Assembly (NCBI GenBank): GCA_029959605.1
Contig: JASCOC010000005.1
Span: 1-64,000, forward strand
Length of the DNA stretch: 64,000 nucleotides
Direction of reading: 5' to 3'
Source: Lysobacteraceae bacterium PS02340
Lineage (GTDB): Bacteria > Pseudomonadota > Gammaproteobacteria > Xanthomonadales > Xanthomonadaceae
Made by a program: the position numbers and the translations under genes. Below are positions 56,620-60,362 of this stretch, one piece after another (within the stretch, counting starts at the first letter, position 1; the number at the start of each line of letters is the position of its first letter). Under the pieces are notes generated by a model. The model searched no databases. It saw nothing but the letters and a program-made list of their open reading frames with translations, and was not told the DNA's origin.

Positions 56620-57300
56620 GTGACCGCAATCGACGACGCCACGCATGCGGTCCTCGTACCGGACCGTCTGCGCGTGCTGCACGTCGACGATCACCTGCTG
56701 GCGTTCGACAAGCCCAGCGGCCTGCTGTCGGTACCCGGCCGCGGGGCGGACAAACACGACTGCCTCGCGAGCCGCGCTCTGGCGCTGTGGCCGGACGCGC
56801 GCGTCGTGCATCGGCTGGACCAGCCGACGTCGGGCGTCATCGTGCTGGCGCGAACTGCGGAGATGCAGCGCGCGCTCGGCGACGCCTTCGCCGAACGCCG
56901 CGTCGACAAGCGCTATGTCGCGATCGTCGACGGCTGGCCCGACGCGGATGCCGGCACGATCGATCTGCCGCTGCAGGCCGACTGGCCGAACCGGCCGCGG
57001 CAACAGGTTGACTGCATCAGCGGCAAGCCCGCAAGGACCCGCTGGCAGGTCCTGTCGCGCACGCAGACTACGGACAGGGCGCCCTGCACCCGGTTGGCGC
57101 TGATGCCCGAGACCGGCCGCACGCACCAGCTGCGTGTGCACCTGCGGGCGATCGGCCATCCAATCCTCGGCGATGCGCTGTATGCCTCGCCCGAAGCGCA
57201 CGCACGCGCGGCGCGGCTGCTGCTGCACGCGGAGTCGCTGAGCTTCGAACATCCGGCGACCGGCGCGTCGCTGTGCATCACATGCGCGGTGCCGTTCTGA
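56620..57300 (+). CDS. rluA: RluA-family pseudouridine synthase
   Basis: A 226-residue enzyme that isomerises uridine to pseudouridine in rRNA/tRNA. The catalytic loop is RVVHRLDQPTSGVIVLAR (Asp in HRLD). DDHLLAFDKPSGLLSVPGRG and PETGRTHQLRVHLRAIGHPI are typical of RluA itself rather than RluC/D, because the N-terminal S4 domain is absent. The start is a GTG at 56620, 18 bp after hemF. The gene symbol is by length and motif; a specific target site cannot be proven. Confidence 0.85.
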   Translation: MTAIDDATHAVLVPDRLRVLHVDDHLLAFDKPSGLLSVPGRGADKHDCLASRALALWPDARVVHRLDQPTSGVIVLARTAEMQRALGDAFAERRVDKRYVAIVDGWPDADAGTIDLPLQADWPNRPRQQVDCISGKPARTRWQVLSRTQTTDRAPCTRLALMPETGRTHQLRVHLRAIGHPILGDALYASPEAHARAARLLLHAESLSFEHPATGASLCITCAVPF

Positions 57301-57353
57301 AACTCAGCACTCCCGCGACACCTGCAACAACCATCGCAGCAAATTCCGGACGT

Positions 57354-57389
57354 AAAAAAGCCCCGCAGGCAGGGGGGGCCTACGGGGCT
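57354..57389 (-). terminator. Rho-independent terminator of the sX13-like RNA
   Basis: Stem agccccg (57359-57365) with cggggct (57383-57389), extended by an inner aggc/gcct pairing and a C-rich loop on the minus strand. A T-run of six follows. Confidence 0.88.
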
Positions 57390-57479
57390 CGGGGAACCGG
57401 GCGCGGGGAGACGCCTGATGGTTCCGGTCGATCACTCCAGGGGAAGGAAGCGATCTAGCGACAGACCTTGCATCTGTCG
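57354..57479 (-). ncRNA. sX13-like small RNA with three C-rich loops
   Basis: In the 320-bp gap between the pseudouridine synthase and polA, a minus-strand RNA can be folded from sequence. Hairpin 1 (57459-57479) has a perfect 7-bp stem. Hairpin 2 (57430-57455) has loop UUCCCCU. Hairpin 3 (57393-57425) has loop UCUCCCCG. The terminator hairpin (57359-57389) has an all-C loop followed by a U-run (57354-57359). Three C-rich loops plus a terminator are the architecture of sX13 of Xanthomonas, about 115 nt. The 5' end near 57477 is inferred from TTATGT at 57484-57489; no clear -35 was found. The rest of the gap shows nothing else. Confidence 0.78.
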
Positions 57480-57620
57480 AGGGACATAAGACCATTCCAT
57501 GGATGGATGGATCGTGAAGATTCCGGTTAATATTCTGTTGGATTCAGGCCGCATTTACTCGCATGCGGCGCAGATAGCGGCGTCGCCACACACGGCACAT
57601 TTCAGCCGGCGAAACGCAGA

Positions 57621-60362
57621 TCAATGCGCCTCGTCCCAGTTGTCGCCGATGCCGCTGTCGACGACCAGCGGCACCCGCAGTTCGCCGGCGCGGGTCATCC
57701 GGGTCACGACCTCGGCCAGCAGCGTGTCGACGAAATCCAGATCCGCTTCGAACACCAGTTCATCGTGCACCTGAAGGATCATTTTCGCGCGGTCCGCGTG
57801 ACCGGCGATCCAGCTGTCGATGGTGATCATCGCGCGCTTGATGATGTCGGCCGCGGTGCCCTGCATCGGCGCGTTGATCGCGGCGCGCTCGGCGCCGGCG
57901 CGCTGCGAGGGATTGCCCTTCTGGATGAAGTCCAGCGTCAGTCGCCGGCCGAACACCGTCTCGACGTAACCGGTCTCGCGTGCCTGCAGCCGGGTGCGGT
58001 CCATGAAGTCGCGCACGCCCGGATACCGCGAGAAGTACAGCGCGATGTAATCCTGCGCCTCGCCGCGGCCGATGCCGAGATTACGCGCCAGACCAAAGGC
58101 ACTCATGCCGTACATCAGGCCGAAGTTGATCGCCTTCGCCGCGCGTCGCTCGTTGCCGGTGACGTCCTCCAGCGGGCGGGCGAAGACTTCGGCCGCCGTC
58201 GCGCGATGGATGTCGACACCGGATTCGAACGCCCGCACCAGACCCGGATCCTCGGACAGGTGCGCCATGATCCGCAGCTCGATCTGCGAGTAGTCGCAGG
58301 CGATCAGCTTGCGGCCCGGCGGCGCGACGAAGGCGCGGCGGATCCGGCGGCCGTCGTCGGTGCGGATCGGGATGTTCTGCAGGTTCGGATCCGACGACGA
58401 CAACCGCCCCGTCGCCGCGCCCGCCTGGTGGTAGCTGGTGTGCACGCGGCCGGTGTCGGCGTTGATCATCTCCGGCAGCTTGTCGGTGTACGTGCTGCGC
58501 AGCTTCGCGAGGCCGCGGTACTCGAGGATCACGCGCGGCAGTTCGTGCTGGTCGGCAATCGCCTCCAGCGCTTCCTCGTTGGTGCTCGGCTGACCCTTCG
58601 GCGTCTTCACCACGGCCGGCAACTTCAGCTCGTCGAACAGCAATGCGCCGAGCTGCTTGGGCGAATCGAGATTGAAGGTGCGGCCGGCGAGTTCGGTCGC
58701 CTTCTGCTGCGCGGCGAGCATGCGCTTGGACAGGTCCGCGCTCTGCCGGCGCAGTTCGTCGGCATCGACGCGTACGCCGTTCGCCTCGATGCGCGCGAGC
58801 ACCGGCACCAGCGGAATCTCGATGTCGGCGTAAACGCGCACCAGGCCCGCATAGGCTTCGATGCGCGGCTTCATGACCCGGTGCAGCCGCAGGGTGATGT
58901 CGGCATCTTCGGCGGCGTACTTCGACGCGTCGTCGATGGCGACCTGCGAGAACGAGATCTGCTTGGCGCCCTTGCCGGCGACATCCTCGAACTTGATCGT
59001 CTCCATGCCGAGATGGCGCTTGGCCAGCGAGTCGAGATCGTGGCGTGCGATGCCGGCGTCGAGCACGAAACTTTCGAGCAGCGTGTCGTCGGCGTAACCG
59101 CGCACGTCGACGCCATGCCGGCGCAGCACATGGATGTCGTATTTGCCGTGCTGGCCGAGCTTGCGCTTCGCCGGGTCTTCGAGGACGCCGCGCAATGTAT
59201 CGAGCACCAACGCGCGATCGAGCTGCGCCGGTGCGCCGGGATAGTCGTGGCCGACGGGGATGTAGGCAGCGCGGCCGGGTTCGATCGCGAAACTCAGGCC
59301 GACCAGGCCCGAGCGCATCGCGTCGAGCGCGTCGGTTTCGGTGTCGAACGCGAATTCGTCGGCGGCCTGCAGCTGCGCGACCCAGGCATCGAGCTGCTCG
59401 CGCGTCGTCACCGTCTCGTACTCGCCCGGCACCGACAGCGCGGGATCGAGCGTCGACGGCGGCGCGGGCATCGTGACCGCCGTGGCGACTGTGGGCGCAG
59501 TGCCCGTATCACCAGCCGTGTCGAGGTCCTTCAACGCCTGACCGAAGCCGTAACGCGCGTACAGCACGCGCAGGGCATCGATCGCACGCGGCCGCAGGAT
59601 CAGCGTCTCCGGACCGCCGTCGAGCGCGACATCGGTCTTGATCGTCGCCAGTGCGCGGCTCAGCGGCAGCTGATGCAGCGCCTCGCGCAGGCTCTCACCG
59701 ATCTTGCCCTTGATGTTGCCCGCGTTCGCGATCACGCCGTCGAGCGATTCGTATTCGGTGAGCCACTTCGCCGCGGTCTTGGGCCCGCACTTCGGCACAC
59801 CGGGAATGTTGTCGATGCTGTCGCCCATCAGCGCGAGCAGATCGACGATCTGGTCGGCGCGGACGCCGAACTTCTCGACCACGGTCGCGTCGCTGTCCAT
59901 GCGGCTGCCGCTCATCGTGTTGACCAGGGTCACGCGCGGGCGCACCAGCTGGGCGAAATCCTTGTCGCCGGTGGAGATCGTCACCTCGATGCCGGCGTCG
60001 GCCGCCTGCAGCGCCAGCGTGCCGATGACATCGTCGGCCTCGACGCCGGGGACGCGCAGGATCGGAAAGCCGAGCGCCTCGACGATCGTGCACATCGGCT
60101 CGACCTGCGCACGCAGTTCGTCGGGCATCGGCGGGCGATTGGCCTTGTACTGGTCGTAGAGGTCGTCGCGGAAGGTCTTCCCGGGCGCGTCGACGACGAA
60201 CGCCGCGAAGTCCGGCGCCTCCTTCAAGGTGGCGCGCAACATGTTGACGATGCCGAACAGCGCGCCGGTGGGTTCACCGTCGGCGTTGCTCAGCGGCGGC
60301 AGCGCGTGGAACGCGCGATACAGGTACGAGGACCCGTCGATCAGGATGAGGCGTTTCGTCAT
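57621..60362 (-). CDS. polA: DNA polymerase I
   Basis: A 913-residue repair and lagging-strand polymerase. The 5' nuclease domain (residues 1 to about 290) begins LILIDGSSYLYRAFHALPPL. The 3'-5' exonuclease domain is active by motif (FAFDTETD with Asp340/Glu342). The polymerase domain has motif A DYSQIELRIMAHLSEDPG, motif B RRAAKAINFGLMYGMSAFGL and motif C VHDELVFEAD (Asp867). The length and domain set are complete. The sX13-like RNA lies 142 bp after its stop on the same strand. Confidence 0.98.
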   Translation of the reverse strand: MTKRLILIDGSSYLYRAFHALPPLSNADGEPTGALFGIVNMLRATLKEAPDFAAFVVDAPGKTFRDDLYDQYKANRPPMPDELRAQVEPMCTIVEALGFPILRVPGVEADDVIGTLALQAADAGIEVTISTGDKDFAQLVRPRVTLVNTMSGSRMDSDATVVEKFGVRADQIVDLLALMGDSIDNIPGVPKCGPKTAAKWLTEYESLDGVIANAGNIKGKIGESLREALHQLPLSRALATIKTDVALDGGPETLILRPRAIDALRVLYARYGFGQALKDLDTAGDTGTAPTVATAVTMPAPPSTLDPALSVPGEYETVTTREQLDAWVAQLQAADEFAFDTETDALDAMRSGLVGLSFAIEPGRAAYIPVGHDYPGAPAQLDRALVLDTLRGVLEDPAKRKLGQHGKYDIHVLRRHGVDVRGYADDTLLESFVLDAGIARHDLDSLAKRHLGMETIKFEDVAGKGAKQISFSQVAIDDASKYAAEDADITLRLHRVMKPRIEAYAGLVRVYADIEIPLVPVLARIEANGVRVDADELRRQSADLSKRMLAAQQKATELAGRTFNLDSPKQLGALLFDELKLPAVVKTPKGQPSTNEEALEAIADQHELPRVILEYRGLAKLRSTYTDKLPEMINADTGRVHTSYHQAGAATGRLSSSDPNLQNIPIRTDDGRRIRRAFVAPPGRKLIACDYSQIELRIMAHLSEDPGLVRAFESGVDIHRATAAEVFARPLEDVTGNERRAAKAINFGLMYGMSAFGLARNLGIGRGEAQDYIALYFSRYPGVRDFMDRTRLQARETGYVETVFGRRLTLDFIQKGNPSQRAGAERAAINAPMQGTAADIIKRAMITIDSWIAGHADRAKMILQVHDELVFEADLDFVDTLLAEVVTRMTRAGELRVPLVVDSGIGDNWDEAH

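Follow-up and report, generated by a model that had tools for sequence, protein, structure and literature searches.

An sX13 RNA behind polA

The gene for DNA polymerase I (polA) is followed on its own strand by a small RNA in the window, by which we mean the whole 64-kb stretch of DNA that was analysed. The features of the locus are listed below, starting from polA.

57621..60362, minus strand: polA (913-aa DNA polymerase I), which precedes sX13 on the same strand
57542..57557, minus strand: direct repeat TAAAT/TGAAT with 11-bp spacing, a possible activator site (by eye)
57485..57514, minus strand: putative ECF/sigma-E-like promoter, -35 position CGATCC (57514-57509) and -10 position GGTCTTATG (57493-57485), from conservation; the -35 core is degenerate here
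57354..57481, minus strand: sX13 RNA, predicted full transcript (match to family model R1; Rfam RF02232 spans 57353-57469)
57459..57479, minus strand: 5' hairpin, arms 57479-57472 and 57466-57459, loop GCAAG (folding; 8-9 covarying pairs; 5' arm upstream of the Rfam 5' end at 57469)
57430..57455, minus strand: stem-loop 1, loop CUUCCCCU (folding, covariation)
57393..57425, minus strand: stem-loop 2, loop CUCCCC (folding, covariation)
57353..57390, minus strand: stem-loop 3, the intrinsic terminator, loop CCCCCCU, then a T-run (folding, terminator scan, covariation)
56620..57300: convergent pseudouridine-synthase-like ORF on the other flank of the sX13 gap (named by eye)

A covariance search of the window matched the sX13 family RF02232 at 57353-57469 (minus strand) over its full length (model positions 1-115 of 115) with 62.4 bits and an E value of 3.1e-9, above the gathering cut-off of 50 bits. 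This was the sole Rfam family at gathering score in the window, and the assembly carries a single sX13 copy. An earlier sequence-only reading had proposed an sX13 homologue outside Xanthomonas, to be checked with the Rfam model, and the full-length match confirms it. A family model of our own (R1), built from an alignment of 54 sequences (A2) alone, matched 57354-57481 (minus strand) with 106.2 bits, the window sequence being part of its training set. The distance from the polA stop, which lies at 57621, is 139-151 nt on the same strand (151 nt to the Rfam start), placing the RNA where the sequence-only reading had put it.

Folding of 57353-57480 (minus strand) gave four consecutive hairpins, the last a 13-bp terminator with a T-run, at a minimum free energy of -64.3 kcal/mol compared to -40.9 +/- 3.9 in 200 dinucleotide shuffles (z -5.99, 0/200 as low). 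A terminator scan recovered the same final stem (57390-57358, minus strand). The loops of hairpins 2-4 carry the C-runs UUCCCCU, CUCCCC and CCCCCCU, so that the sX13 hallmark of three stable stems, each with an apical C-run (4C, 4C, 5C), is present, and both the four hairpins and the three C-rich loops had been read correctly from the letters. The RF02232 model spans three hairpins and just half of the first.

The published sX13 (Schmidtke et al. 2013, PMC3771888) measures 115 nt, has three stems and three C-rich loops behind an unstructured 5' region, and is reported as always downstream of polA, exclusive to Xanthomonadaceae and set in flanking sequence termed highly variable. According to the available text of that paper, it acts independently of Hfq, promotes hrp genes and virulence, is constitutive in Xcv, and becomes more abundant in Xanthomonas under high salt, at 37 C or in minimal medium. 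The mRNAs it represses tend toward G-runs near the start, and repression of hfq, XCV3927 and pilH fusions depends on the loops. The same authors likened the polA-linked site to those of Spot 42 and alpha-r7, and raised the question of polA-locus sRNAs in other bacteria.

The window RNA is a genuine, ordinary member of this family, sharing with it the full-length match, three C-rich loops, the terminator, the polA site and a G-run before hfq. The identification is right but mostly in print already, in Rfam ("Xanthomonadaceae sRNA") and in the parts of PMC3771888 available to us. The closest PolA relatives among those listed are from Luteimonas sp. 9C (96%), sp. 4-12 and sp. XNQY3 (both 95%), which makes the host Luteimonas-like, and the virulence role known from Xanthomonas is therefore not carried over to it. 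An effect on virulence genes, part of the sequence-only reading, would for such a host be an analogy with Xanthomonas.

Across the family, RF02232 was found in 142 of 149 genomes at E<=1e-3 (113 above cut-off), and at the level of the order in 70 of 200 genomes, 34 of them outside the family (counted by eye). RNAalifold predicted four helices with 28 consensus pairs from the A2 alignment, in which 96.9% of cells are paired (32-50% in slid versions) and 20 of the 28 pairs show two-sided change, compared to 8.1 +/- 1.7 in shuffles. The stems thus covary in relatives, as the sequence-only reading had proposed to check. All 54 rows share CCC in loop 1 and UCCCC in loop 2, and conservation of the loop 3 C-run is 90% or higher. 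When family RNAs were folded individually, all 69 had four hairpins and three CCC loops; 24.9% of shuffles reach two such loops. The hairpin and promoter counts omit L086, which is probably just a terminator, and L087, which is truncated at a contig end.

Same-strand polA lies upstream in 80 of 92 family match entries, and in 8/10 further family and 21/30 order entries; the order entries without it include three near contig ends (L128, L130, L154). The 12 exceptions among the 92 comprise ten copies lacking polA in a flank of 0.85-1.5 kb, the chance-like L086, and L087, whose polA side is entry L092. Since copies without polA in the flank exist, the published rule of a position always downstream of polA has exceptions. 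These copies occur in pairs in three genomes, G002 (L037/L038), G004 (L041/L042) and G110 (L043/L044), and singly in four, G033 (L067), G100 (L068), G084 (L088) and G056 (L089); polA sits elsewhere in these genomes, most of them fragmented assemblies. Some loci carry tandem sX13-like copies behind polA, 2-4 per locus and some degenerate (L058/L104 in G022, L101 in G067, L103 in G049, L055 in G119, L156 in G488, L250 in G580). At two loci R1 found an RNA adjoining polA where the Rfam match was absent or fragmentary (L106 in G034, 60.4 bits; the contig-cut L092 in G139, 69.2 bits).

Similar RNAs behind polA outside Xanthomonadales

Within the class, RF02232 at E<=1e-3 matched 13 of 274 genomes, three in the family and ten outside it, none of the ten over the cut-off. 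In four of these ten genomes the match follows polA on the same strand at a distance of 101-720 nt; in the other six no polA showed in the flank, and three of the six (L161, L162, L165) are chance-like. Of the 274 genomes, 259 gave a PolA match, and 107 polA loci outside the order were taken, mostly one per family. R1 gave 27 matches at E<0.01 over 100 of these loci, 25 of them downstream of polA on the same strand in 25 loci. These counts retain L269, probably a chance match (no promoter, wrong loops), and L178, which lies 1.3 kb from polA. The remaining seven loci (L196, L224, L243, L246, L263, L271, L273) had no R1 match, so that most polA loci searched outside the order had none at E<0.01. 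The other two matches are antisense (L198, L199) and represent R1/RF02837-like RNAs near polA on the opposite strand.

Because fetching loci by polA biases position, R1 was also run on whole genomes. It matched 14 of 274 class genomes, 11 of them outside the family, and in eight of the 11 the match lies just behind polA on the same strand (G358, G399, G400, G450, G455, G488, G498, G547; compared by hand). In G441 polA is on a different contig from the match, and in G343 and G528 its place was not listed or not found. In a control search, 45 unrelated family loci gave no R1 match at E<0.01, and of seven polA loci rerun in it only L175 matched, weakly and antisense.

An alignment of the 27 class RNAs (MAFFT, RNAalifold) gave only 12 pairs, with one helix spanning parts of two hairpins. 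It missed the four helices because MAFFT misplaced stems, and each RNA was therefore folded alone and compared to shuffles. Four hairpins were found in 22 of 25, and at least two CCC loops in 24 of 25 compared to 16% of shuffles. A convergent engB lies within the fetched stretch in 41 of the 107 polA loci, including 20 of the 25 with an R1 match.

Several described RNAs resemble this set. Anti-hemB (Burkholderia RNA 7, RF02837; background in the available parts of PMC5688073 and PMC3521395) combines a CUCCCUG-looped hairpin with a terminator, and its model is shorter, at 81 nt. In other gammaproteobacteria the model detects RNAs that follow polA, and its matches overlap those of R1 at L189, L277, L278 and L283. 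At gathering score, RF02837 was the only Rfam family in 19 class loci picked by eye, appearing in two, and it was found in 123 of 274 class genomes, 13 above cut-off. Positions were compared among at least 150 RF02837 places in at least 119 genomes, with polA places for at least 147 genomes. Of the 86 genomes with both places listed, at least 45 have the RNA on the polA strand no more than 2 kb past the gene, and no fewer than 5 of the listed places are near polA on the opposite strand. The window genome has no RF02837 match at E<=1e-3.

ErsA of Pseudomonas aeruginosa occupies the gap between polA and engB and depends on sigma-22/AlgU, a sigma-E homologue; it is described with two stem-loops and a U-rich unpaired domain, and its effect on anr needed Hfq (available text of PMC8575079, PMC7565897 and PMC5819304). 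ErsA fits an sX13-like family by place and promoter, a likeness drawn from its description and not from sequence. For the window RNA the polA side is the same, engB has its best match on a different contig of the genome and the -35 is degenerate. The locus of G530 (L227), considered as an ErsA carrier, showed no such RNA when viewed by eye. Spot 42 of E. coli is likewise a regulatory RNA downstream of polA, Hfq-dependent, acting in carbon metabolism and published as without sequence similarity to sX13 (PMC3771888, in part); the window has no Rfam match to it. For the alphaproteobacterial alpha-r7, a location at polA and three stem-loops that are C-rich at the tip have been described (same source). 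Another alphaproteobacterial RNA, ar14, has a sub-threshold match in the window (57355-57466, minus strand; 27 bits against a cut-off of 58.8, E 0.015).

Although sX13 has been reported as restricted to Xanthomonadaceae, these comparisons suggest that it belongs, as a single branch, to a wider and older class-wide family, which has probably gone unrecognised so far. The sequence-only reading, which set the sX13 site beside that of enterobacterial Spot 42 as an sRNA site in both lineages, holds and extends further, as similar RNAs lie behind polA in several other gammaproteobacterial families. Alternatively, the RNAs outside Xanthomonadales are not sX13 homologues, and C-rich terminators and C-loop RNAs directed against ribosome sites arose repeatedly. 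The sparse Rfam matches outside the family, none over the cut-off, are what such convergence would predict, as are the reach of R1 to only 25 of 100 polA loci on the polA strand, the failure of the MAFFT alignment to recover four helices, and the C-rich loops published for alpha-r7. Nevertheless, we regard repeated origin as unlikely, given that the neighbour gene, its strand and the promoter type are the same, and that the elements come in one order (5' hairpin, CUCCCUG loop, UCCCCAAG loop, C-loop terminator). Moreover, among the 9 outside genomes for which the place of polA was listed, position-blind R1 matched just past the gene in 8, and the 45 unrelated loci gave no match.

The 5' hairpin and the promoter motif

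The window RNA differs from the published sX13 in an evident fourth hairpin at the 5' end. The Rfam 5' end, which we equate with the published one because the lengths are equal, sits in the loop of this hairpin, which reaches ~10-12 nt further upstream, so that its helix joins the published "unstructured" nucleotides to bases upstream of the Rfam start. Among 74 distinct ungapped 25-mers from 100 rows, 94.1% of cells are paired (26-46% in slid versions) and 87 are two-sided, compared to 24.2 +/- 3.8 in shuffles. The published unstructured region thus appears, from this covariation, to be the 3' arm of a 5' hairpin. Since sX13 lacking 14 nt at its 5' end still complements the Xcv phenotype (PMC3771888, as far as its available text goes), the hairpin is dispensable for that complementation.

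The inverted repeat at 57459-57479 could instead be a DNA operator at the sX13 promoter, with the RNA starting at 57469 and its first 14 nt unstructured. The published form is in keeping with this, being 115 nt long with an unstructured 5' region cut by RNase T1 in vitro (available text of PMC3771888), as is the almost invariant central GCAA. Arm changes that preserve symmetry look alike in DNA and RNA, and in the other seven pairs the 25 G-U cells compared to 31 other-mismatch cells do not decide between the two. However, at the innermost position 51 of the 74 rows have U-G and 19 have C-G, a combination that preserves pairing in RNA but not symmetry in DNA and so favours an RNA hairpin. The arms also vary with compensation (CGACAGA, GTGACGG, ACGGTGG, GGACGGT and others), unlike a fixed protein site, the promoter -10 sets the start at the foot of the repeat, and the class-level RNAs mostly begin with a hairpin as well. 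An operator is, on this evidence, quite improbable.

A conserved motif of the form GAAC-N16-TC precedes the RNA hairpin. In 81 distinct upstream sequences (from 90, anchored on the Rfam start) the commonest bases are GAAC at -44..-41 (57-66 rows per base) and TGGT at -25..-22 (53-69 rows). The pattern AAC[CT]-N16-19-TC occurs upstream in 69/93 distinct family, 25/29 order and 22/25 class members, compared to shuffle means of 11.4, 4.4 and 2.9 (maxima of 200 shuffles 18, 10 and 9). Many order and class members have near-canonical forms (AACTTT...TCTAA; GGAACTTTT...GTCTTA). The rpoE gene of the window genome is preceded by GGAACTT-N15-GTCCTAA, that is GGAACTTTTCGCGCAGTGACCTGTCCTAA (read by eye); a script with a narrower sigma-E pattern did not pick it up. 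A motif of this kind resembles the E. coli sigma-E consensus. A sigma-70 promoter scan at sX13 found none, and the ECF reading therefore rests on conservation.

The -35 is CGAACC in most relatives compared to CGATCC in the window. The core is GATTC or GATCC in the window and its close kin (L284, L286, L287), and GAACC is retained in three Luteimonas, L285 (as close as L287), L288 and L289. Among Xanthomonas, L292, L294, L296, L302-L305 and L307 have GATCC and lack GTC, and L299, L320, L323 and L327 retain GAAC. Because the core is degenerate in the window, control by sigma-E may no longer hold there. Further upstream, a direct repeat TGAAT-N6-CTGAA with an 11-bp period is conserved in many relatives (by eye), despite the high variability reported for the sequence around sX13; it resembles a response-regulator site, possibly a PhoB/PhoP-like one.

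In the open-licence literature, PMC3771888 was the only paper found on an sRNA downstream of polA, and no report was found of the 5' hairpin, the sX13 promoter motif or a class-wide family. The covarying 5' hairpin, the sigma-E/ECF-like promoter motif and the same-plan RNAs outside Xanthomonadales thus go beyond Rfam and the available text of that paper.

Candidate targets and a proposed mode of action

The hfq gene of the window genome is preceded by CTGGGGAAACACCATG, in which GGGGAA is complementary to UUCCCC of loop 1. In Xanthomonadaceae, GGGG begins at -20..-8 in 21 of 31 hfq starts and is absent there from 10; the 31 are the window genome and 30 loci (L372, L379-L408) drawn from 58 genomes with a match among 60. 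For Xcv, 5.37% of genes are reported to have a G-motif at 8-15 upstream, a narrower stretch than ours (PMC3771888, in part). The idea that the C-loops pair with G-rich ribosome sites comes from Xanthomonas, and the motifs found here are consistent with it.

The C-loops might instead mainly titrate a protein or the ribosome. The display of the same C-run three times would suit that role, and in Xcv regulation was not restored when changed loops were combined with changed target motifs. Also in Xcv, however, regulation was lost when either the loops or the G-motif of the mRNA was changed, and individual loops acted in a target-specific manner (available text of PMC3771888), which leaves titration as the main role very doubtful. 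That the RNA is a mere terminator or 3' UTR of the polA mRNA without function in trans, as its same-strand place 139-151 nt past the polA stop and its terminator might suggest, is scarcely credible given the promoter motif between them, the covarying stems and conserved loops over 54 sequences, the copies without polA in the flank and the phenotype of the sX13 deletion in Xcv (PMC3771888, in part).

We consider it highly probable that the window RNA is an sX13 with its own promoter behind polA, a 5' cap hairpin and C-loops that lower the translation of G-rich targets. Transcription would start at or near 57481-57479 and end at the terminator (57358). The 5' hairpin would cap the transcript, and the three further hairpins would expose loop C-runs for pairing with G-rich ribosome-binding motifs (GGGG/GGGGA) of target mRNAs, including hfq, which would then be translated less. 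The promoter would descend from the sigma-E/ECF type, so that originally the RNA probably served in envelope- or stress-linked control.

On balance, we lean toward a joint reading in which a single ancient gammaproteobacterial sRNA gave rise to sX13, anti-hemB, many unnamed RNAs and probably ErsA. The RNA would have arisen behind polA, often facing engB, with sigma-E as its ancestral driver, a 5' hairpin as a cap and three C-rich loops that read Shine-Dalgarno-like G-runs. The -35 would have decayed, leaving expression constitutive, in several Xanthomonas and in the window genome, and the published 5' end would be a product cut in the hairpin loop or a mis-set start. Taken alone, the window contributes a further sX13. 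More weight lies on the comparison with relatives, which links a Xanthomonas RNA associated with virulence, and reported as family-specific, to a broad group of RNAs at polA with an envelope-stress-type promoter motif.
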